Assembly: GCA_002695025.1 (NCBI GenBank)
Contig: NZNV01000041.1
Span: 1 to 64,000 of the forward strand
DNA length: 64,000 bases
Direction of reading: 5' to 3'
Source of the DNA: Owenweeksia sp.
GTDB lineage: Bacteria; Bacteroidota; Bacteroidia; Flavobacteriales; Schleiferiaceae
The notes under the pieces were generated by a model. The model saw nothing but the letters and a program-made list of their open reading frames with translations, was not told the origin of the DNA and ran no database searches. Below are positions 2,797-52,979 of this stretch, piece by piece. Position numbers and translations under genes: made by a program. The first letter of the stretch is position 1. Each line of letters starts with the position of its first letter.

Positions 2797-3396
2797 ATGA
2801 AACCCCTTACCCCACTTTTCATGATTTCAGGCCTCTTTATTTCCTCCCTTATGATGGGGCAAACTGAAGAGCTGAAACAGAAATTATCCGCCTTTGCGGC
2901 AGACCATGATGCCAGCTATGAGAAAAAGTACCTCAATATTGCCGACCGGGAAATAGGGTCTATTGACAACACCAGTTACTCCTGGAAAGATGAGTTCATG
3001 CTTAAAAGCAAAGAAAAGGCTATGAACAACCTTGGAAATAACAGCTATCAAAAATTTTACTTCTCCTTTTACGCCTATGAAACTGTTACGGATCGTAAAT
3101 ACGCCCTCAAGGACTGGATGGCAGACTTTATTGAAGGCAAATCCATCCGTGCCGGCCGGCCGGTCAGGAAGTATGATTATGCCACCCCAACCATCATCCT
3201 TATTAATGATACGGAAATCATGGTGTGCAATTATAAGTGCAGCGACTTTTCCGATGACAATTTCAAATACTGGCGCAAGACCTTACTGACGTATTTTGGA
3301 GAAGATAATACCATGGTTATTGAAATTGGATGTAACGGTCCCCTGGAATGGACTAAAAATGCTCCCGATCCTAAAAACCGCAGAGAAATGCCCTAA
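2797..3396 (+). CDS. Secreted protein of unknown function
   Basis: This 199-residue protein begins with a clear Sec signal peptide: a hydrophobic run after 'MKPLTPLFMI' with likely cleavage after 'SLMMGQ', a site type common in Bacteroidota. The mature part is polar and mixed in charge, with one cysteine pair region near the middle (VCNYKCS), and no motif I recognise. It has no lipobox and no T9SS sorting domain, so it is probably periplasmic. It lies between the mobile-element end and yifB, and its stop overlaps the yifB stop by four bases in a convergent arrangement. Its function is unknown. Confidence 0.75.
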   Translation: MKPLTPLFMISGLFISSLMMGQTEELKQKLSAFAADHDASYEKKYLNIADREIGSIDNTSYSWKDEFMLKSKEKAMNNLGNNSYQKFYFSFYAYETVTDRKYALKDWMADFIEGKSIRAGRPVRKYDYATPTIILINDTEIMVCNYKCSDFSDDNFKYWRKTLLTYFGEDNTMVIEIGCNGPLEWTKNAPDPKNRREMP

Positions 3397-4937
3397 CCCA
3401 TCCACCCCTCACGATCCAGGCTACGGTACTGTATAGCCTCAGCAATGTGATGAGTTTCTATTTGGTTACTACCCTCCAGATCAGCTATGGTCCTTCCTAC
3501 TTTTAGAATACGATCATAGGCCCGCCCGGAAAGGTTTAGCTTATCAATGGCATTACGCAATAATTCCTGCCCGGCCTTGTCGATCCGGCAAACTTCTCTC
3601 AATTGACGTGTACTCATCTGTGCATTGCAGTACACACCCTCATTTTGCGCAAAACGTTTGTTTTGCACTGTCCTGGCGCTAACTACCCTGGTTCGTATGT
3701 CCCCACTTTTTTCAGCAGGTCTTTCTGATGACATCTCATCAAAAGTGACCGGGGTCACTTCCACATGCAGATCAATACGATCCAGCAAAGGACCGGATAT
3801 CTTATTCAGGTACTTTTGCACTACCCCCGGAGAGCATACACACTCACGGGTAGGGTGGTTGTAATATCCACAAGGGCACGGATTCATAGACGCTACCAGC
3901 ATAAAAGAGGTAGGATAGTCCACCGTAAACTTTGCTCTGCTGATGGTAACCTTACGATCTTCCATAGGCTGACGCATCACTTCCAGCACCGTCCGTTTGA
4001 ATTCCGGTAGTTCATCCAAAAAAAGTATACCGTTATGAGCCAGGGATATCTCTCCTGGTTGCGGAAATCCTCCGCCACCTACCAAAGCGACATCGGAGAT
4101 ACTATGATGAGGATTCCTGAAGGGACGTTGAGCAATAAGACTGCTATGATTACCCAACTTTCCAGCCACCGAATGTATTTTGGTGGTTTCTAAAGCCTCA
4201 TTCAAAGTCATAGGTGGAAGGATGGAAGGCATCCTTTTGGCCAACATGGTTTTTCCCGCTCCGGGAGGACCGATCAATATGACGTTGTGACCGCCTGCAG
4301 CCGCAATTTCCAAGGCTCGCTTTATATTCTCCTGCCCTTTTACCTGGTCAAAATCATGCTCAGGATTGCCCAGGTGCTGCTCAAACTCCTCCCTGGTATT
4401 TACCTTTACGGGCGCTGGCCTGGCTGAATGATCCAGCAGATCAATAACCTCACGCAGTGTCTTTACACCGTATACATCCAGATTATTCACAATGGCCGCC
4501 TCACGGGCATTCTGTTCGGGAAGGATAAACCCTTTAAAATCCTCTTTACGGCCTTGTATGGCAATCGGCAGCGCACCCTTTATAGGCTGCACGCCTCCAT
4601 CCAGGGAAAGTTCACCCATAATTACAAATTCGGCTACCTCCCCCGCATCTACATCTATCTGCCCGGAAGCCGCCAATATACCGATGGCAATGGGCAGATC
4701 ATAGGCAGAACCTTCCTTCCTGATATCAGCCGGTGCCATGTTTACCGTAATGCGCTTTCCCGGCCATTTGTAGCCGTTATTCTTTAATGCGGCCGTAATG
4801 CGGTGTTGACTTTCCTTTATGGCATTATCCGGCAAACCCACCAAATGGAAGTGTATGCCGGCATCGGTATTTACTTCAATGGTTATGGTAGTGGCATCCA
4901 CACCAAAAACAGCGCTTCCGAAGGTTTTAATGAGCAT
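3393..4937 (-). CDS. comM: YifB/ComM family AAA+ ATPase (magnesium chelatase-like)
   Basis: The family includes ComM, a hexameric helicase that promotes branch migration when incoming DNA is integrated during natural transformation. The 514-residue protein has the N-terminal ChlI/Lon-protease-like domain (about 20-140), then an AAA+ module with Walker A GPPGAGKT and Walker B 'ILFLDELPEF', a Cys cluster 'NPCPCGYYNHPTRECVC', and the C-terminal Mg-chelatase lid. The frame is open further upstream, but the ATG at 4937 ('MLIKTFGSAVFGVDA') gives the usual family start and length; the preceding 34 residues look like untranslated leader. Divergent from recA, which also acts in recombination. The function in this host is inferred from the family. 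Confidence 0.93.
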   Translation of the reverse strand: MLIKTFGSAVFGVDATTITIEVNTDAGIHFHLVGLPDNAIKESQHRITAALKNNGYKWPGKRITVNMAPADIRKEGSAYDLPIAIGILAASGQIDVDAGEVAEFVIMGELSLDGGVQPIKGALPIAIQGRKEDFKGFILPEQNAREAAIVNNLDVYGVKTLREVIDLLDHSARPAPVKVNTREEFEQHLGNPEHDFDQVKGQENIKRALEIAAAGGHNVILIGPPGAGKTMLAKRMPSILPPMTLNEALETTKIHSVAGKLGNHSSLIAQRPFRNPHHSISDVALVGGGGFPQPGEISLAHNGILFLDELPEFKRTVLEVMRQPMEDRKVTISRAKFTVDYPTSFMLVASMNPCPCGYYNHPTRECVCSPGVVQKYLNKISGPLLDRIDLHVEVTPVTFDEMSSERPAEKSGDIRTRVVSARTVQNKRFAQNEGVYCNAQMSTRQLREVCRIDKAGQELLRNAIDKLNLSGRAYDRILKVGRTIADLEGSNQIETHHIAEAIQYRSLDREGWMG

Positions 4938-5139
4938 CGAGTTGAGTTTTGAAAGGACAAAATAGTCAATTTCCAGCGGTGTTTCTCTGTAGATCTTAAC
5001 AATCCCACCAGAGAAAAATGCCGATATTCCAAATATCATTTCAATATTAATTCTTATTTATTTGGAATTCTATTTTTATTGACTTTATTTGCATTGGAAA
5101 TCTTCACAGGTTAAAATTTATTGTGCCTGGGTCATTCCC

Positions 5140-5147
5140 TATTTTTG
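5140..5147 (+). promoter_or_regulatory. Putative -7 box of recA
   Basis: TATTTTTG matches TAnnTTTG and leaves a leader of about 30 bases before the recA ATG. A TTG at 5121-5123 could be a -33 element, though the 16-base spacing is slightly short. I see no obvious LexA-type palindrome. Confidence 0.5.
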
Positions 5148-5183
5148 CAAATAATCAGAATTTAATTCCTTCAAGATAGTACT

Positions 5184-6179
5184 ATGAGTAACGATAAAGA
5201 TGCCAAGCTGAAAGCACTCAAACTCACCATGGACAAGCTCGACAAGACCTATGGTAAGGGTGCTGTGATGCGGATGGGTGATAATGCCGTGGAACAGGTA
5301 GAAGCCATCCCTTCGGGTTCTATCGGCCTGGATATAGCCCTCGGGATCGGAGGCTATCCCAAAGGTCGTGTGGTTGAGATCTACGGACCTGAATCTTCCG
5401 GTAAAACCACGCTTACCCTTCACGCCATTGCGGAGGTACAACGCAAAGGTGGTATTGCTGCTTTTGTGGATGCGGAACATGCTTTTGATCGTTTTTATGC
5501 TGAAAAACTGGGGGTCGACACCGAAGAACTTATCATTTCCCAGCCCGACAACGGAGAACAGGCCCTCGAAATAGCTGACAACCTCATCCGCTCTGGGGCT
5601 ATTGATATACTGATCATTGACTCCGTTGCCGCACTTACACCCAAAAGCGAAATTGAAGGTGAAATGGGCGACAGCAAAGTGGGATTACACGCCCGCCTGA
5701 TGTCCCAGGCCCTGCGAAAACTGACTTCCACCATCAGCAAAACCAAATGCTGCTGCATCTTCATCAACCAGCTACGTGAAAAGATTGGCATTATGTTCGG
5801 GAACCCTGAAACCACTACCGGGGGTAATGCTCTTAAATTCTACTCTTCTGTACGCTTGGATATCCGCAGGACCTCACAGATCAAAAATGGAGATGCAGTA
5901 ATGGGTAACCGTGCCCGTGTAAAAGTGGTGAAGAATAAGGTAGCTCCTCCTTTCCGCCAGGCAGAATTTGACATTATGTACGGTGAAGGTATTTCCAAGA
6001 TCGGGGAGATCATTGACATGGGCGTGGATTACGAAATTGTGAAAAAATCCGGTTCATGGTTCAGCTACGGAGACACCAAACTAGGCCAGGGGCGTGATGC
6101 TGTAAGACAATTACTGATCGATAATCCGGAACTGGCTGATGAAATTGAAAATAAGATCAGGGAAGCCATTTCGGCTTAA
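5184..6179 (+). CDS. recA: RecA recombinase
   Basis: RecA forms ATP-dependent filaments on single-stranded DNA, drives homologous pairing and strand exchange, and triggers SOS where LexA is present. The 331-residue sequence is canonical: Walker A GPESSGKT (about 66-73), Walker B '[12 protein letters not shown]', loop L1 '[14 protein letters not shown]', loop L2 '[16 protein letters not shown]', and the C-terminal domain. Compared with E. coli RecA (352 residues) the acidic C-terminal tail is shorter. One oddity is a run of three cysteines, '[11 protein letters not shown]', in the core strand. A terminator follows immediately, so it is probably transcribed alone. Confidence 0.98.
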
Positions 6180-44606: not shown

Positions 44607-45768
44607 TACTAAAAGTTACTTTTCCTCTGATTTTAAGCTGGGGATTCTAGGAGGCGGACAATTGGGGAAAATGCTCCTTACCGTTACCCGTCAATATGAT
44701 ATTGCCACCAAAGTTATGGATCCTTCTGCCGAAGCACCCGGACGCCTTGCCAGCAACGAGTTTGTGCAAGGTGATCTTATGGACGAAGAAGCGGTTTACC
44801 GTTTCGGACAGGATTGCGACCTTATCACCATTGAAATTGAAGGCGTTAACATTAACGCACTGAAACGTCTGGAAAAGGAAGGGAAAAAAGTTTTTCCCCG
44901 GCCGGCAGCCCTGGAAACCATCAAAAATAAATGCGTTCAAAAGGACTTTTACCGCGCCCATAAAATCCCCACCGCCTCCTTTCATACTTGCAAGGATAAA
45001 AGTGAGATGCTTCATCTTTTGGAACACAACCAGATCGGTTATCCTTTTGTATGGAAGGCCGCTACCGGGGGTTATGATGGCAGGGGTGTTGAAGTGGTGA
45101 AAGGCCCCGAGGCCCTTGAAAACATTCCGGATACCGAATGCCTTTGTGAAGAACTGGTGTCTTTTGAGAAGGAGCTGGCCGTAATAGTAGCGCGTTCTGA
45201 GAGTGGAAAAACCCAGTGTTTCCCGGTGGTAGAGATGGATTTCCATCCTACGGCCAACCTGGTGGAGTACGTATTCAGCCCTTCCACACTGGAGCAAAGG
45301 ATCCAGAATAAAGCAACCAGCCTGGCCGTGCGTCTCGCAAATGAACTGGATCATGTAGGGCTGCTGGCGGTTGAAATGTTCCTTTCCGATAATGAGAACA
45401 TACTTGTAAATGAAATTGCACCCCGTGTGCATAATAGCGGGCATCTCACTATTGAAGGGAATGTTACTTCGCAATTTGAACAGCACATTCGCTCCATACT
45501 GGATCTACCGCTGGGAGATACCAGCGTTATAAGACCCGCAGTAATGATCAATTTAACCGGTGAAGAGAAGTATGAGGGTCCGGTGTTTTATGAAGGAATT
45601 GAGGAAATTATGTCCATGCCCGCCACTTATGTACATTTATACGGCAAAGCTGATACCAGGCCTTACCGGAAGATGGGACACGTAACGGTAACGGCTGAAA
45701 GGCTGGACGAAGCACGTGCAAAAGCGAAGGACGTTAAAAACGCAATCAAAGTAATAAGCAGATCATGA
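44599..45768 (+). CDS. purK: N5-carboxyaminoimidazole ribonucleotide synthetase
   Basis: PurK makes N5-CAIR from AIR, bicarbonate and ATP in purine synthesis. The 389-residue ATP-grasp protein starts after 'FKLGILGGGQLGKMLL' and has the ATP-grasp motifs 'FVWKAATGGYDGRGVEV' and 'LLAVEMFLSDNENILVNEIAPRVHNSGH'. The start is taken as GTG at 44599, which overlaps the sprT stop by eight bases; an upstream TTG at 44575 is possible but lies deeper in sprT. It overlaps purE by four bases (ATGA), the classic purK-purE pairing, with purK first here. Confidence 0.95.
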   Translation: MPDTKSYFSSDFKLGILGGGQLGKMLLTVTRQYDIATKVMDPSAEAPGRLASNEFVQGDLMDEEAVYRFGQDCDLITIEIEGVNINALKRLEKEGKKVFPRPAALETIKNKCVQKDFYRAHKIPTASFHTCKDKSEMLHLLEHNQIGYPFVWKAATGGYDGRGVEVVKGPEALENIPDTECLCEELVSFEKELAVIVARSESGKTQCFPVVEMDFHPTANLVEYVFSPSTLEQRIQNKATSLAVRLANELDHVGLLAVEMFLSDNENILVNEIAPRVHNSGHLTIEGNVTSQFEQHIRSILDLPLGDTSVIRPAVMINLTGEEKYEGPVFYEGIEEIMSMPATYVHLYGKADTRPYRKMGHVTVTAERLDEARAKAKDVKNAIKVISRS

Positions 45769-46253
45769 GCAAGCAGGCACAAATCGGAATTATAATGGGC
45801 AGCAAATCCGACCTGCCGGTGATGCAGGAAGCTGCAGATGTTTTAAAGGAGCTGGGGGTAGAATATGAGATCAATATTGTTTCAGCACACCGAACTCCGG
45901 ATTTGATGTACGATTATGCCAAAAATGCACACAGCCGTGGTTTGAAAGCCATAATTGCCGGTGCCGGAGGGGCTGCACATCTTCCCGGTATGGTGGCCTC
46001 ACTCACTCCATTGCCTGTAATTGGAGTGCCGGTTAAATCCAGAAACTCCATTGACGGTTGGGATTCGGTACTTTCTATTTTACAGATGCCCGGAGGAGTA
46101 CCGGTGGCCACAGTAGCCCTGGATGGAGCTAAAAATGCGGGAATACTGGCGGCTCAGATCATAGGCTCAGCCAACCCTGAGGTCCTTCAAAATCTTATTC
46201 AATTCAAGAATGGGTTGAGGGATAAAGTATTGGAATCAGCCAAAAGCCTTTAA
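45765..46253 (+). CDS. purE: N5-CAIR mutase (PurE class I)
   Basis: PurE moves the carboxyl group of N5-CAIR to give CAIR in purine synthesis. The 162-residue protein has the class I signature 'IIMGSKSDLPVMQEAADVL', the active-site His in 'VSAHRTPDLMYDYA', and 'AGAGGAAHLPGMVASLTPLPVIGVPV'. It overlaps purK by four bases, so the two enzymes are coupled. Length is normal for class I. Convergent with the LytTR regulator gene; a hairpin lies in the gap. Confidence 0.97.
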   Translation: MSKQAQIGIIMGSKSDLPVMQEAADVLKELGVEYEINIVSAHRTPDLMYDYAKNAHSRGLKAIIAGAGGAAHLPGMVASLTPLPVIGVPVKSRNSIDGWDSVLSILQMPGGVPVATVALDGAKNAGILAAQIIGSANPEVLQNLIQFKNGLRDKVLESAKSL

Positions 46254-46405: not shown

Positions 46406-47164
46406 TTATAAGTTCTTCAGCGTGCTTAGTAATTGCTCTTTCTTGCGATTGGCAACAGGTATCTTAGAACCGTCTTCCAGTATAAGGTAACCCCCGTCCG
46501 TTTGAACGTATCTTTTCAGGAAATTCATATTTACAAGGTGCGACTTGTGCACCCGGTTGAAATTATAACCGGTAAGCATGGTATCAAACTCCTTAAGGGT
46601 TTTAGAAGCCAATAGCGATTTATCGTTCTTCAGGTGAAAAGTAGTGTAGTTACTACTGGACTCCAGGCGAATAATATCTGCCAGCTTGATAACGTGCATG
46701 CCATCTGAAGTGGGCACCACTATTTTTTTAGGAGAATCCGAAGCCTGGCGGATATTTTCCACGAGCACATTGAGATTGGCGGCATGGGGAGGCAAGCCTT
46801 TTTGATCCTCCACCTTCCGAATGGCCCTCACCAGTTCCTCCGGATCAATGGGTTTCAAAAGATAATCGAGCGCACTGAATTTGATGGCTTTAATAGCAAA
46901 CTCATCATGAGCTGTAATAAAAATGATCTTGGGCTGTACCTCACTGTTCTTGGCTACTTCATCAAGAATATCAAAACCACTCTCTCCGGCCAGTTTAATG
47001 TCCAGGAAAACTGCATCGGGCTTACTATTGGTAATAGCCGCAATACCGTCCTTTACATTTCCTGCTTCCGCAGCAATTTCCACTTCGGGACAAAACAGAT
47101 CCAGCTTACCTTTTAAGGAATCCCTGGAGTTCTCTTCATCATCAATGATTACAACCTGTATCAT
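46406..47164 (-). CDS. LytTR-family response regulator
   Basis: This 252-residue regulator has a receiver domain (1-120) with phospho-acceptor Asp55 ('AVFLDIKLAGE'), an acidic pocket 'IIDDEEN' and Lys in 'DYLLKPIDPEE', followed by a LytTR DNA-binding domain (about 150-250) with 'VPTSDGMHVIKLADIIRLES' and 'NFNRVHKSHLVNMNFLKRY'. Such proteins bind direct repeats upstream of target promoters. The start is taken as ATG 47164 ('MIQVVIIDDEE'); an earlier in-frame ATG (47194) overlaps the upstream gene. The partner kinase ends 26 bases upstream, so this is a complete two-component pair. Confidence 0.94.
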   Translation of the reverse strand: MIQVVIIDDEENSRDSLKGKLDLFCPEVEIAAEAGNVKDGIAAITNSKPDAVFLDIKLAGESGFDILDEVAKNSEVQPKIIFITAHDEFAIKAIKFSALDYLLKPIDPEELVRAIRKVEDQKGLPPHAANLNVLVENIRQASDSPKKIVVPTSDGMHVIKLADIIRLESSSNYTTFHLKNDKSLLASKTLKEFDTMLTGYNFNRVHKSHLVNMNFLKRYVQTDGGYLILEDGSKIPVANRKKEQLLSTLKNL

Positions 47165-47190
47165 ATTAATCTTTTTGTAAAAATAAACAT

Positions 47191-50103
47191 TCAAATACTC
47201 TCGGCCGGTAATTTGATTACCACTTTTGTTCCGGCAGCCGTGCCGTCACTATTTAGCTTATCCTCTATGGTGATATCTACTTTTTCACTCATAGATACCC
47301 TAAGAAGCCTCAATCGGTCACGGTTTATCTGGGTAGCCATAGAGCGGTGATCTTTCCGTTTGTTCAACTCCCGGGCTCTTTTCCGCCCTATTCCGTTATC
47401 CTCTACCTCCACGATCAGCAGGTCATCCTCCAGTATAAAACGGATATCCAATTTACCGGAATGCTCTAATGGTTTCAGACCATGAAGGATAGCGTTTTCC
47501 ACATGCGGTTGAATGAGCATGGGTGGAATCCCCACATCATAATCCATTTCATCATCTACCTCAATGTGATACTCGAATTTTCCCTGGAACCGTAGTTTTT
47601 CAAGTTCAAGATAGTTTTTTAGTATGGATACTTCCGTTTCTACCGGGTGAAGGTGTTCCATTGATGATTCAAGGGTCAGTCTCATCAATTTTGCGAAATT
47701 ATTGAGATACCGCACCGCTTTCTCAGGATCCTTTTTGAAGATAAAACTGCTGATAGAATCGAGGGCGTTGAAAATAAAATGGGGGTTCATTTGAAGGCGA
47801 AGAGCTTTCCGCTCCATTTCAAGCAAGGCATTCTCAAGCCTTAAACGGTGATTAACCCTTTTCACGCGGTCCATGATGAAAGCTAAGGTGAGTCCACCCA
47901 ACAGCAGAACTGTAAAGGTTATGAACCACCACCTCATCCATACCGGGCGCAGTATCCTGAATTGATATTCCACCTGCACCGGGCTCCAGGCTTCTCCCAG
48001 CCGCGATACCTGAGCCTGAAAAGTATATTCTCCTGGCTTTATATTGGGGAAAACTGCTTCCCGCCTGCTTCCCGCCACAGTCCACTCATCCGACTGGCCC
48101 CGGAGGCGGTAACGATACTGAAGGTTTTCTTTTTGGTATTCCGTTAAGCCTGAGAAGTTGAAACTGAGAAAGTTCAGATCATGGGGAAGCCTTACTTCAG
48201 CGGGCAGCAGCGTAAACCGCAGGGAATCATCGGCATACTCCGGCAGGCTATTGTTCTGCCCAAGGAACAATTTAATATCGGTCAGTATCAATTCCGGCTC
48301 AGGCTTTTTCGATTGGAAACCATCGAGATCCAGCACCTGTAAGCCTTCCGTGGTACCCACCAACAGTTTATCCCGGTTTGCAGCAATGGATTGGGGAGTA
48401 CAGCTTTGACCGTTCTGGCCGGCCACATAAGGAAGCTTTATGATATGGGCCGGATTCCCATTGCGGATCTCATAAATCCCTTTGTTCGTTCCCATCCAAA
48501 CGGACCCATTCCCTGAAATGGCCATGGACTGTATTTCGGCAAAACCAAATTTTTCAACCGGTATACGGCTTACCCCGGAGCTACTGAAATGAAAAACTCC
48601 TTCGGTGAGGCTACCCGCCCATAATTCATTCTTATTCTTTGCGGCAAAACAACTAAAGCGCAAACTATCCAGGCGAATACCGTTCATCTCCGTCAACACC
48701 TGCCATTCACCATCCGCATAGCGAAAAAATCCCTGGGTATACGTACCACACCAAAGCGAACCATCCTGACCTTCTGAAATACTGAAAATGGTAGCCGGGG
48801 GAAGATCATTTTTCTGAGAAACATTCTCTATGCGGCCATTACTATAACTGAACAATCCCGCACCCATACCCAGCCAAAGCCGATTGGAACTGTTTTTCAT
48901 GGAAAAAACAAAATCGCCACCGCCCGGAGTTCTTACTTCTTGAAAGCCACGCTCACTCTTACGGATAAGCCCATTCTCGGTACCCAGCCATATATCTCCT
49001 TCAAAGGCTGCAATAGAAAGAGTTAAACCGTAAGGAAAGCCGTTGGCGCGGTCATACACCTTAGCGGCACCATTTTGCACATGGGCAAAACCCGATACCA
49101 AACCGGTGTAAATACTATTTTCCTTATCCTGGCAAATGCCAAAAACCTGTGAGGAGGCTGAACCTAGATCTGTGTAGGTACGCCAGTCCAGGCTCTCCAG
49201 CTTCACCAGGCCTTTGTTGGAAAAGAGCCAGATCACACCGTTGTCATCGGCATAACAACCTTTGTAGTCCTGCTGCGGAAGGCCATTTTCATCGCTTAAC
49301 TTAATAAGCTTCCCCGCCTGCTTACGGATGGTAAGTTCACCATTCGCCAGCGCCAGGCCATAATCTTCCGAAAGAAAAATGTCTTTCCATGGAGCAACGC
49401 GGGTACGCAAGTGCTGCCCGGAATAATCATACACTCTAAGTTCACCCCGGAATAAGGCATACAATTCCTTTTCTCCTGCCACCAGCTTCAGCACTTCTCC
49501 GCTATCTACAAGGTGAATGGCATTATCCCGTAAAACCTTCAGTCCTTTTTTAGCCGCTATCCAAACCTTTTGGTCTTTAACCTGCAGGTGATTGACCATT
49601 CCTGCGCTCTGAGCCACCAGGCTATCCCATTGTCCGTTTTGATCCACCAGCCACATGGCACCGGCCTGGTCTGCCACTACTAAATGTAAACTATCGTAAA
49701 GAGCGGCACTCCTTAAGCGGGAGTTGGAGCCAGGTACTGTGTATTCGTATTGATGATGGCCATCAAATTTGAGCACCCCCTGCTCCAGGGTTACCCATAT
49801 ATTCCCGTGAGCATCTTCCATAAGGCTGGTCATAAAAAGACGGGAGCCCTGAGATGGTGAAGTATAGGTTTTAAAATCGTAGCCATCGTACCGCAGCAAA
49901 CCGTTACCTTCCGTAGCTATCCAGTAGATACCTCTTGAATCCCGCAGCATATCATTAACGCGGCTATTTGGCATTCCCTGTTCCAGGCCTATGAGATCGA
50001 AATCATACACCTGTGCATGGCCCAACTGTATACACAGCAATAAATCCAGGATCACACAGCAAAAAACCGTGCGAAGTGTATGGATGTGAGTGTTGCTGAG
50101 CAT
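47191..50103 (-). CDS. LytS-like sensor histidine kinase with a periplasmic two-component propeller
   Basis: This 970-residue protein has a signal-type N-terminus, then about 650 residues of two-component-regulator propeller repeats (motifs such as 'DSRGIYWIATEGNGLLRYDGYD', 'GDIWLGTENGLI' and 'GSVWMGTNKGIYEI'), a Y_Y_Y Ig-like domain ('LNFLSFNFSGLTEYQKENLQYRYRL'), one membrane helix (about 725-745), and a cytoplasmic His_kinase domain with phospho-His775 in 'LQMNPHFIFNALDS' and an HATPase with 'DNGIGRKRARELN'. In Bacteroides such propellers sense carbohydrates, usually beside glycan-uptake genes; none is here, so the ligand is unknown. Paired with the LytTR regulator that follows. Confidence 0.93.
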   Translation of the reverse strand: MLSNTHIHTLRTVFCCVILDLLLCIQLGHAQVYDFDLIGLEQGMPNSRVNDMLRDSRGIYWIATEGNGLLRYDGYDFKTYTSPSQGSRLFMTSLMEDAHGNIWVTLEQGVLKFDGHHQYEYTVPGSNSRLRSAALYDSLHLVVADQAGAMWLVDQNGQWDSLVAQSAGMVNHLQVKDQKVWIAAKKGLKVLRDNAIHLVDSGEVLKLVAGEKELYALFRGELRVYDYSGQHLRTRVAPWKDIFLSEDYGLALANGELTIRKQAGKLIKLSDENGLPQQDYKGCYADDNGVIWLFSNKGLVKLESLDWRTYTDLGSASSQVFGICQDKENSIYTGLVSGFAHVQNGAAKVYDRANGFPYGLTLSIAAFEGDIWLGTENGLIRKSERGFQEVRTPGGGDFVFSMKNSSNRLWLGMGAGLFSYSNGRIENVSQKNDLPPATIFSISEGQDGSLWCGTYTQGFFRYADGEWQVLTEMNGIRLDSLRFSCFAAKNKNELWAGSLTEGVFHFSSSGVSRIPVEKFGFAEIQSMAISGNGSVWMGTNKGIYEIRNGNPAHIIKLPYVAGQNGQSCTPQSIAANRDKLLVGTTEGLQVLDLDGFQSKKPEPELILTDIKLFLGQNNSLPEYADDSLRFTLLPAEVRLPHDLNFLSFNFSGLTEYQKENLQYRYRLRGQSDEWTVAGSRREAVFPNIKPGEYTFQAQVSRLGEAWSPVQVEYQFRILRPVWMRWWFITFTVLLLGGLTLAFIMDRVKRVNHRLRLENALLEMERKALRLQMNPHFIFNALDSISSFIFKKDPEKAVRYLNNFAKLMRLTLESSMEHLHPVETEVSILKNYLELEKLRFQGKFEYHIEVDDEMDYDVGIPPMLIQPHVENAILHGLKPLEHSGKLDIRFILEDDLLIVEVEDNGIGRKRARELNKRKDHRSMATQINRDRLRLLRVSMSEKVDITIEDKLNSDGTAAGTKVVIKLPAESI

Positions 50104-50148: not shown

Positions 50149-50952
50149 ATGAAAAGGATTTGGATACTGCTGCTGTTTCCCTGTTGGGTCTCGGCTCAAA
50201 ATTACGGTAATCTGTCCGGAGGACGCTCAGCAGCCATGGCTCACAGCAGCGTGGCCATTGAGGATGTTTGGGCAGCTCACCATAACCAGGCTGCCCTGGC
50301 CTGGCTGAAAAAGCCCGAAATGGGCTTGAGTTACGAGAACCGGTATTTTCTAAAAGATCTAGCCATCGGTAATTCAGCATTCGTCTATCCTACGGAATGG
50401 GGTACACTGGGACTTAGCATGTCCTATTTCGGTTTTGAGCTTTACAATCAATCCAAATTTGGACTTAACTACAGCCGGGCTTTTGGCCGATTCTTCAGCT
50501 TTGGCCTGCAGGTTAATTATGAGAATTTCTACGTAAGTGAAGGAACCACAACCTCAGGAGCCGTTACTTATGAAGCCGGCATCATCGGGAAGCCCTTGCC
50601 CGGCTTAAACATCGGTTTCCACATTTACAACCCCACCAGCCAGCTCAAGAATACCCTTACAGAAGAAACCCTTCCCTACATTGGCCGGCTTGGCGTTCGT
50701 TATGAATTCAGTAAAGATGCTGCTCTTCATGCTGAAGTACGGAAGCAACAAGAACTGCCCGAACGCTATGCATTGGGATTTGAATACCGCCTGATTGAGA
50801 TTTTATCTCTCCGAACGGGAGCGGCCCTACAACCCCTGACCAATACTTTCGGGCTGGGTCTGAAATTTGCTTCATTTCGCACCGATCTTGCTTATGAGTA
50901 CGCGCAGGTATTGGGCAGTAACGCCACCATTAGCCTTCAATACGAGTTTTGA
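50149..50952 (+). CDS. PorV/PorQ-like outer-membrane beta-barrel protein
   Basis: This 267-residue protein has a signal peptide ('LLLFPCWVSAQ') and a beta-barrel of the FadL/PorV type: the N-terminal 'GGRSAAMAHSSVAIEDVWAAHHNQAALAWL' is the family hallmark, and the rest alternates polar and hydrophobic residues down to a terminal Phe ('SLQYEF'). PorV and PorQ shuttle or anchor T9SS cargo, but this is a divergent, short member, so a T9SS role is not established. Its stop overlaps the next gene's TTG start (TTGA), so the two are coupled. Divergent from the sensor kinase with a 45-base gap. Confidence 0.8.
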   Translation: MKRIWILLLFPCWVSAQNYGNLSGGRSAAMAHSSVAIEDVWAAHHNQAALAWLKKPEMGLSYENRYFLKDLAIGNSAFVYPTEWGTLGLSMSYFGFELYNQSKFGLNYSRAFGRFFSFGLQVNYENFYVSEGTTTSGAVTYEAGIIGKPLPGLNIGFHIYNPTSQLKNTLTEETLPYIGRLGVRYEFSKDAALHAEVRKQQELPERYALGFEYRLIEILSLRTGAALQPLTNTFGLGLKFASFRTDLAYEYAQVLGSNATISLQYEF

Positions 50953-52979
50953 GAAGGCTATTCCTGATATCGGTTTTCTTCTATGCTGCCACTCCCCTCT
51001 TTTTGCAGGCACAGACCCCTTCCCGGTCGCTGGAATATGAGATCGAATCACTGGCGGAGGGCAATGAAGAGAACGAAACGGATTTTGTACAGCTGGCCGA
51101 ACAGCTGGAGTTACTGCGAGAAAACCCCATACCGGTAAATTTTGCCGAAGCCGAAGACTTCCAGAAGCTCCCCTATCTCAACATCTTCCAGGTGCACAAC
51201 CTTATGGAATACCGGAGGCAGACTGGCTTCCTGTACACTCCCTATGAATTGGCCGTTATTAAAGGCTTTGACCGGGAAACAATTGAAAAGATCCTGCCTT
51301 TCCTCAGTTTTACCACGCAACAGTTGGTACCCTCCATAGAGGCCAAAAAAGTATGGCTCTACAGTAACCACAACCTGATCTATCGCACCGCTATTCCCTT
51401 TCAGCAAAGAGATGGCTATACTGATGCGGATGGCTACAAAGGCAGCCCTCAATCGCACTACCTGAGGTGGCGGAGCACCTACCGCGATATCCTGTCTTTT
51501 AATATCACAGCCCAGCAGGATGCCGGGGAGCCTTTTGGAGGCAGCACGGGTGTTGATTTTCTTTCCGGTCATCTAGCTATCCAGAATTATGGCCGTCTTA
51601 AGAGTCTGATTGTAGGGGATTACCAGGTAGAATTTGGACAGGGTTTGGCACTTTGGAGCGGCCTTACGTTCGGAAAATCTGCAGAACCCGTTGAAATAAA
51701 GCGTTATGCGCGGGGGCTCCGACCATTTTCAGGGGCCGAGGAAAACCGATTTCTGCGGGGAGCCGCTGCCACCTATCGCATTCTGCCCGGAACCGATGTA
51801 AGCTTGTTCTATTCCTCCAACCGGGTAGATGCCAATATCAGTGCTGTAGATACACTCACCGGAAATGCCATGATCAGCTCACTTCAAACCACGGGTTTGC
51901 ATCGCACAAGCAACGAGATTGCGGATAAGAACAGTAACCTTTTGCAAATCACAGGTGGCAATATCAATTACCGGGGCAACCGTTTCTCCATAGGTAGCAC
52001 CCTAAGCAACTACCAGCTAAAGTACCCGCTGGAGCGAAGCGACCAGCTTTACCAGCAATTCCGCTTTCAGGGCACCCGGCTCACCCAGTATTCACTCGAT
52101 TTTAATTATCTCTTTCGCGACCTTAATGTTTTTGGGGAAGGTGCACTTTCCGACAACGGGGGAAAAGCAGGAACCATTGGATTGCAAAGCCACCCGGCCG
52201 AAGCCCTGTACTTAACAATACTGTATCGGCATTTTGAGAATAGGTACCAGTTTCTTTATAATGCGCCTTTTGCAGAAAGCGGGAACTATGGTGAGCAAGG
52301 TACTTATCTTGGTTTTCAGTGGTTGATGGGTCCCGTATTCAAATTACGGTCCTACCTGGACATCTACCGCTTTAACTGGCTCCGCTTTCGGGTAAATGCC
52401 CCCTCATCAGGACGGGATGTACTGGGTCAGTTGGATGCCTCTTTTAACCGCAGATTCAGTATGTATTTCCGGTTTAAAAATGAACGCCAGCAAGTGAATA
52501 GCAGACTGGAATCCACAGGCCCTCAGTTAAGCTATCAGCAAAGGAGCACTGCACGATTACATGCCAGCTACCAGGTGTACTACAACCTGCGCATGGCTTC
52601 CAGGTTGGAACTTTCCTTTTATGAATTGGAAGGAGAACGCGAAAAGGGAAATGTGATTTTCCAGGATATACAATATGCATTCCGGAAGACCCCTTTGCGG
52701 TTTACGCTCCGCTATGCCCTGATAGACACCAAAAGCTTTAATACCAGGATCTACGCCTACGAGAATGACCTTACCTACGCCTTCAGTATTCCACCTTATT
52801 ACGGTAGCAGTACCCGCTTTTACCTGCTGGTTGATTATACGGTACTGGAAAACCTCAGCCTGGAGGCCAGGTATGAGATTACCCGCTTTTCCGACCGGGA
52901 TGAAATAAGCAGTGGGCTGAACCGTATTGCAGGGAATATCCAAAGTGGATTATCGCTACAGGCTATCTGGAAACTTTAG
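50949..52979 (+). CDS. Outer-membrane beta-barrel protein with a ComEA-like helix-hairpin-helix domain
   Basis: This 676-residue protein starts at a TTG that overlaps the preceding stop. A signal peptide (1-22) is followed by an acidic helical stretch and then, at 63-121, a segment that lines up with the ComEA HhH domain: 'FAEAEDFQKLPYLNIFQVHNLMEYRR', with the second hairpin 'VIKGFDRETIEKILPFL'. The glycines of both hairpins are partly changed (LPGIG to LPYLN, GIG to GFD), so DNA binding may be altered. From about residue 130 to the end the chain is barrel-like, with alternating polar and aromatic residues. I recognise no characterised homolog. It could bind DNA at the outer membrane; that is a hypothesis. 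Confidence 0.8.
   Translation: MRRLFLISVFFYAATPLFLQAQTPSRSLEYEIESLAEGNEENETDFVQLAEQLELLRENPIPVNFAEAEDFQKLPYLNIFQVHNLMEYRRQTGFLYTPYELAVIKGFDRETIEKILPFLSFTTQQLVPSIEAKKVWLYSNHNLIYRTAIPFQQRDGYTDADGYKGSPQSHYLRWRSTYRDILSFNITAQQDAGEPFGGSTGVDFLSGHLAIQNYGRLKSLIVGDYQVEFGQGLALWSGLTFGKSAEPVEIKRYARGLRPFSGAEENRFLRGAAATYRILPGTDVSLFYSSNRVDANISAVDTLTGNAMISSLQTTGLHRTSNEIADKNSNLLQITGGNINYRGNRFSIGSTLSNYQLKYPLERSDQLYQQFRFQGTRLTQYSLDFNYLFRDLNVFGEGALSDNGGKAGTIGLQSHPAEALYLTILYRHFENRYQFLYNAPFAESGNYGEQGTYLGFQWLMGPVFKLRSYLDIYRFNWLRFRVNAPSSGRDVLGQLDASFNRRFSMYFRFKNERQQVNSRLESTGPQLSYQQRSTARLHASYQVYYNLRMASRLELSFYELEGEREKGNVIFQDIQYAFRKTPLRFTLRYALIDTKSFNTRIYAYENDLTYAFSIPPYYGSSTRFYLLVDYTVLENLSLEARYEITRFSDRDEISSGLNRIAGNIQSGLSLQAIWKL

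Follow-up and report, generated by a model that had tools for sequence, protein, structure and literature searches.

The 64,000-nucleotide stretch analyzed here (the window; positions 1 to 64,000 of contig NZNV01000041.1, Owenweeksia sp. assembly GCA_002695025.1) contains a pair of overlapping genes at 50149..52979. The first encodes a PorV/FadL-like outer-membrane protein, termed the partner below, and the second encodes a large beta-barrel protein that carries a ComEA-type helix-hairpin-helix (HhH) domain. We favor the reading that the pair is an outer-membrane DNA-uptake complex serving ComEC in Bacteroidota, with a probability of about one half. This reading builds on the architecture of the two proteins, their conserved pairing, an old comEC operon in one bacterial family, the members of that family that lack barrel and comEC together, and an HhH domain related to the ComEA type. 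A tight, old, and retained comEC junction, combined with a ComEA-type domain on a wide barrel, makes DNA uptake the most economical account. Confidence goes no higher than about one half, as a single event could account for the linkage and barrel losses in other lineages do not follow comEC. Passage of DNA across the outer membrane is a step without established machinery in Bacteroidota. The pair would provide a named candidate for this step, open to deletion tests, and would assign a role to a protein family widespread in the sampled genomes.

The partner gene (50149..50952, + strand) encodes 267 residues with a hydrophobic N-terminus and 14 predicted strands. Its TGA stop codon overlaps the TTG start of the second gene in the sequence TTGA (50949..50952, +), as the initial annotation had read it. 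The second gene (50949..52979, +) encodes the HhH-barrel protein, here also called the barrel, with 676 residues and a signal peptide. Pfam HHH_3 covers residues 60-119 (51126..51305, +) with E 5.8e-8 and 33.2 bits, above the cut-off of 27 bits; the protein has no other Pfam match at E up to 1. In an AlphaFold2 model with a mean predicted local distance difference test score (pLDDT) of 83.9, helices extend to residue 138 and are followed by a predicted 24-strand barrel (residues 140-676; 51366..52976, +). The structure prediction called for at the outset and the above-threshold Pfam match agree with the architecture first proposed, an HhH segment followed by a long beta-barrel.

The strongest evidence for a competence function comes from gene order in a single family. 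Families are given working labels, and f17, f3, and f6 presumably correspond to Sphingobacteriaceae, Flavobacteriaceae, and Weeksellaceae, judging from gene content and context. The first sign was the side-by-side position of barrel and ComEC in four f17 genomes of the phylum-sample comparison. The barrel was subsequently found at E <1e-50 in 61 of 71 f17 genomes, in a few of them as fragments, and every one of the 61 has comEC. In 57 of them, comEC follows on the same strand, with its Competence domain 680-1279 bp beyond the barrel match, a linkage to a core competence gene of the kind sought for a role in natural transformation. Tallies for f17 were recomputed from coordinates, whereas phylum and class tallies were counted by eye. 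All four exceptions belong to one genus, g222, with separations of 1.9 kb (G426), 16 kb (G412), and 40 kb (G448) or a location on different contigs (G438). By tblastn, comEC followed downstream on the same strand in 30/30 and 21/21 further f17 loci, these being the best-scoring ones.

At higher resolution, comEC is the next open reading frame (ORF) in 22 of 23 f17 loci from 20 genera, the gap ranging from -74 to +44 bp; the exception, L314, is cut off by a contig edge. The 20 regions picked one per genus came from genomes in which linkage had already been seen and describe properties rather than frequencies. The partner cluster occupies position -1 in 18 of the 23 loci, and the most widely shared cluster recurs in 6 of 22 at position -2 and in 8 of 22 at position +2. 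Because the barrels of 29 other f17 loci are just ~41-50% identical to the G173 barrel and the outer neighbors are shuffled, the barrel-comEC junction is old and has been retained amid rearranged surroundings. The f17 genomes that give no comEC match (G395, G413, G414, and G416) are all without the barrel, and each of the three genera they belong to also includes genomes with both genes. G413 yielded no HhH-type match either, with 16 of 23 candidates scored. This joint absence is supporting but not independent evidence, because one deletion removes adjacent genes.

Beyond f17, the barrel is widespread and its pairing with the partner is conserved. Profile searches returned it at E <1e-40 in 156 of 187 Bacteroidia genomes and in 135 of 178 genomes phylum-wide, where eight more fall between 1e-17 and 1e-36. 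Genomes of the class set with a best E >1e-17 are termed barrel-less, as is G333 at 2.3e-18; these searches score just part of the first-look candidates, and weak relatives can escape. In the phylum sample, the 17 f3 genomes and two f6 genomes give a weak HhH-type match or none. The barrel is ancient, and the closest of 80 named loci to the window copy, from an Owenweeksia metagenome-assembled genome, is 59% identical. Among 81 loci (the 80 named ones and the window), the partner's cluster lies within 8 kb of the barrel in 74 and immediately upstream in 69, at a median distance of 2 bp (range -137 to +220 bp). Of the 12 loci without a partner directly upstream, at least three start too near a contig end to show one. 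The pairing is well beyond chance, so that the co-occurrence of PorV-like neighbors suggested initially as a check turned out as expected. The next most frequent neighbor cluster within 8 kb, purE, occurs in 23 loci, and all others occur in 14 or fewer. In a set of 60 loci spanning diverse families, 43 have an ORF recognized by the partner profile among the three upstream of the barrel; the purE cluster is found in 12 of these loci and the porD cluster in 9. Separately, some f17 genomes have barrel genes that are fragmented or interrupted by in-frame stops (G434:C5, G444:C1, G494:C1, and G519:C3).

The PorV-like label originally given to the partner is sustained by profile and fold, at scores below the curated NCBIfam thresholds. 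The protein matches the PorV/PorQ family NF033709 with E 2.3e-17 and 63.6 bits (cut-off 90 bits) and the PorV equivalog of the type IX secretion system (T9SS), NF033710, with 22 bits (cut-off 250 bits). A partner family profile matches solved PorV with E 2.5e-9. The partner model (pLDDT 88.8) has 14 strands and reproduces the PorV/FadL fold, that is, a 14-strand barrel with N-terminal helices. Foldseek ranks chain F of a type IX complex first (8gl6_F, TMq 0.77), followed by FadL entries, and 8gl6 is also among the entries found under PorV in the partner profile search.

The barrel itself matched no established family in Pfam, NCBIfam, or profile and fold comparison. A profile of 19 relatives returned a single match in the barrel region, a cyclophilin-like protein at E 0.41. 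With VIA-align, OmpM1, AlgE, and Wzi score Z about 15, OprD-type porins Z about 14, and FimD/PapC Z 13.0-14.3 (root-mean-square deviation 3.3-5.3 over 343-381 residues). Assignment by fold was dropped, since many barrels score equally, ushers among them. With loops and strands assigned by strand alternation in the AlphaFold2 model, mean information is 1.97 in predicted extracellular loops, 1.80 in strands, 1.82 in the HhH domain, and 1.17 in predicted periplasmic turns. Outer loops that are as conserved as the strands, or more so, suggest a gate, a ligand, or contact with a partner.

By profile comparison, the HhH domain is kin to those of ComEA-type and other periplasmic HhH proteins. Its matches in the profile of 19 relatives are EEPD1 (9yi2, 6e-11), ComEA (8dss, 1e-7; 8dfk, 2.9e-6), and Tex (0.0016). 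NCBIfam added a sub-threshold comE match over the HhH region, and the full-length ComEA model TIGR01259 was missed at 13.3 against 152.35 bits. The barrel HhH profile also detects HhH domains in ~300-residue periplasmic proteins of f17. Twenty of these were chosen from earlier f17 profile matches, so the values describe properties rather than frequencies. Most are near 300 residues long with three HhH matches, and in 18 of 20 the barrel profile matches the last domain best (E 1e-8 to 1e-18; exceptions L272 and L274). Hairpin 1 of this last domain reads P-Y-L/I in 18 of the proteins, and the net charge of the last domain is zero or positive throughout the 20. The genome of the window encodes, on another contig, a four-HhH ComEA-like protein (G000:C4:66052-67134; L147:6053-7135), in which the third domain, with a GIG hairpin, outscores the last against the barrel HhH profile.

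In the mechanism we propose, the large barrel would form a wide gated channel in the outer membrane through which DNA would pass. The periplasmic HhH domain would pass incoming DNA on, or dock the channel, to a ComEA-like periplasmic protein and the ComEC channel. The small PorV-like partner may seal or gate the barrel; PorV itself seals or gates SprA in type IX secretion. A more far-reaching version, in which the pair constitutes the outer-membrane DNA translocon of Bacteroidota, is put forward tentatively, with the odds somewhat against it. Such a translocon would import DNA without pilus or secretin, would contain its own ComEA-like domain and a gate of the PorV type, and would be joined straight to ComEC. 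The initial annotation had proposed a DNA-contacting complex engaged in uptake or release. The f17 comEC operon lends weight to uptake, and no support was found for release. In the literature searched, no description of the barrel protein, the pair, or its comEC operon was recognized, nor any report of transformation loss in a mutant of the pair.

Several observations weigh against a DNA-uptake complex, and distribution provides most of them. Across the class, presence of the barrel does not follow comEC: 30 of 31 barrel-less Bacteroidia genomes have the gene (G277 in two weak pieces), and the barrel-bearing genomes G280, G281, and G352 give no comEC match. Barrel-bearing genomes without a dprA match are G255, G291, G303, and G352. 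Presence and absence discriminate poorly here, because comEC, dprA, and SprA are all nearly universal (183, 182, and 181 of 187 genomes, respectively). Occurrence in species devoid of all other competence genes, named at the outset as an argument against DNA contact, is not clearly seen, as G280 and G281 retain dprA. Only G352 lacks both genes, and it is a draft of about 360 contigs at 95% completeness. Within f17, all five searched genomes of genus g53 have comEC without the pair, and in the two inspected (G150 and G387) comEC has a similar location, next to a MerR-like gene. Recognition of the partner in f17 is incomplete as well, at 28/30 and 12/21 of the tblastn loci with a single query and 18/23 by clustering. 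The two genomes profile-searched from f6, the presumed Riemerella family (G005 and G019), show a weak HhH-type match only.

Gene order and the proteins themselves raise further objections. Outside f17, the barrel and comEC pairs listed from the phylum and class samples show no further adjacency. The linkage may thus go back to a single event, and the joint absences in f17 could be single operon deletions. As far as neighbors were identified, the clusters shown outside f17 include no competence gene. The nearest barrel-dprA pair noticed by eye, ~5 kb apart in G088, was treated as chance. Moreover, the HhH domain departs from a DNA-binding module. ComEA, a DNA receptor of the periplasm or cell surface, carries the hairpin motif GIG. 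The marks looked for as signs of ComEA membership, a basic domain with GxG in each hairpin, are not found in the barrel's HhH. Over 167 family proteins, hairpin 1 is mostly F/L-L-N/S without GxG and hairpin 2 mostly G-F-D; the window protein has YLN and GFD. Net charge of the domain averages -3.0 (135 negative, 15 positive, and 17 neutral). The caveat first attached to the altered hairpin glycines was apt for hairpin 1. Since the domain is acidic and lacks GxG in its first hairpin, it is doubtful that the HhH itself grips DNA, contrary to the binding first envisaged for this segment. The barrel interior offers a pointer to a DNA path that is only suggestive: lumen-facing net charge, a crude estimate made without coordinates, averages +10.5 and is positive in 166 of 167 proteins. 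The window barrel reaches only +3 by this estimate, and the partner averages +1.9, with 10 of 16 proteins above zero. For the predicted outer loops of the barrel, mean net charge is -8.9.

A protein-export role along a PorV-type path is the main competing explanation, and we consider it unlikely. The pair would then be an accessory outer-membrane complex of type IX-related export, such as a small translocon or shuttle site, with the HhH as a protein-protein docking domain. The relatedness of the partner to PorV in sequence and fold and the acidity of the HhH both suit such a role. A further point in its favor, which also counts against DNA uptake, is that 9 of 16 loci from outside Bacteroidia have a divergent neighbor of the porD cluster, a type IX secretion gene, next to the pair or barrel (L215, L216, L218, L219, L221, L223, L226, L227, and L228). 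One member of this cluster was tested and matches NF052317 with E 3.8e-83; the cluster also matches DUF4835. However, the cluster is absent from the 44 Bacteroidia loci compared, and the barrel does not follow SprA, as would be expected of a type IX component. Five of six SprA-less Bacteroidia genomes keep the barrel, among them G061 with comEC adjoining, and SprA is present in 30 of 31 barrel-less genomes. Export also leaves the comEC operon unexplained.

The same operon bears on the idea that the pair moves another polymer, such as a polysaccharide or oligosaccharide, as an outer-membrane porin or transporter of a general kind, for which the place before comEC would be a fixed accident. The fold ties with OmpM1, AlgE, Wzi, OprD-type porins, and FimD/PapC would fit a porin, as would near-universal presence with losses that track neither comEC, dprA, nor sprA. 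Yet a junction kept in 57 of 61 f17 genomes amid shuffled neighbors is hard to attribute to accident, and a ComEA-type HhH is not accounted for, which makes this explanation rather improbable. Least probable of all, and very unlikely in our estimate, is an envelope-spanning tether whose HhH keeps the barrel near ComEC or a ComEA-like protein while DNA crosses through another outer-membrane protein. An HhH without DNA-binding hallmarks would serve as a tether, and other candidates for the path exist, for example RA0C_RS04915/RS04920 of Riemerella (PMC8459023). Against this, the conserved predicted extracellular loops suggest that the barrel has a ligand or gate of its own. On balance, the pair as a DNA-uptake complex serving ComEC remains the preferred reading.

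Elsewhere in the window, a YifB/ComM family ATPase (3393-5039, -; TIGR00368, 643.5 bits against a cut-off of 362.4) and recA (5184-6179, +; TIGR02012, 567.4 bits against 325.3) are divergent neighbors spanning 3393-6179. Their presence, noted initially as competence context for the pair, is confirmed by these scores. Their use as linkage evidence was dismissed owing to the ~45 kb that separates them from it. A propeller/Y_Y_Y sensor histidine kinase and a LytTR response regulator occupy 46406-50103 (-), upstream of the pair and divergent from it; within 8 kb of the barrel, the kinase cluster occurs in 7 of 81 loci and the regulator cluster in 14. The purE gene (45765-46253, +) also lies upstream of the pair and, as a recurrent neighbor of the barrel, is probably a housekeeping gene.

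Natural transformation is documented in Riemerella, which provides a point of reference (PMC8459023). A screen recovered ComEC, DprA, ComF, and RecA together with four proteins without relatives in well-known machinery, and the outer-membrane step is presented there as a speculative model (PMC8459023). One protein, RA0C_RS02645, has three HhH domains, and no transformation was detected upon its disruption (PMC8459023). The four-HhH protein of the window's genome is a possible counterpart. Replacement of the barrel by DUF5689/RS04920-type proteins in barrel-less lineages was considered and rejected, as the two are not mutually exclusive. With DUF5689 as a stand-in for the Riemerella outer-membrane protein RS04920 and E <1e-30 counted as strong, 41 of 187 genomes have a strong match (13 of 31 barrel-less and 28 of 156 others). 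Strong DUF5689 therefore occurs with and without the barrel, and the two are not simple substitutes; the association with barrel absence is confounded by descent. Of 30 loci drawn from many families (L316-L345), 26 have a member of one shared cluster next to the DUF5689 gene. A TonB-like barrel label for this neighbor was withdrawn, its partial frames having no match in NCBIfam (one frame) or Pfam (three frames). In Bacteroides thetaiotaomicron, an HhH-domain protein, BT3167, is listed among iron-responsive genes (PMC10434189).

Several known systems resemble the pair in part. In size and layout, the ~300-residue HhH proteins of f17 resemble RA0C_RS02645, and their last HhH is the one that the barrel profile favors; proteins of this type, equated by layout alone, differ from the HhH-barrel protein in having no barrel and a net positive or neutral last HhH. 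The barrel is large and comparable in size to the ushers FimD and PapC. Chaperone-usher pores have 24 strands, the number predicted here. However, Pfam gives no Usher match at E 1, the N-terminal domain here is an HhH, and other barrels score as well as the ushers. The partner shares a FadL-like 14-strand model and PorV profile matches with the PorV/PorQ family, whereas it scores below the curated cut-offs, spans 267 residues against models of 326-367 positions, and is paired with an HhH barrel. Finally, the HHH_3 domain of the barrel aligns over its length with that of ComEA and matches 8dss by profile at E 1e-7, and it differs from ComEA in a first hairpin without GIG, in its acidity, and in its fusion to an outer-membrane barrel.

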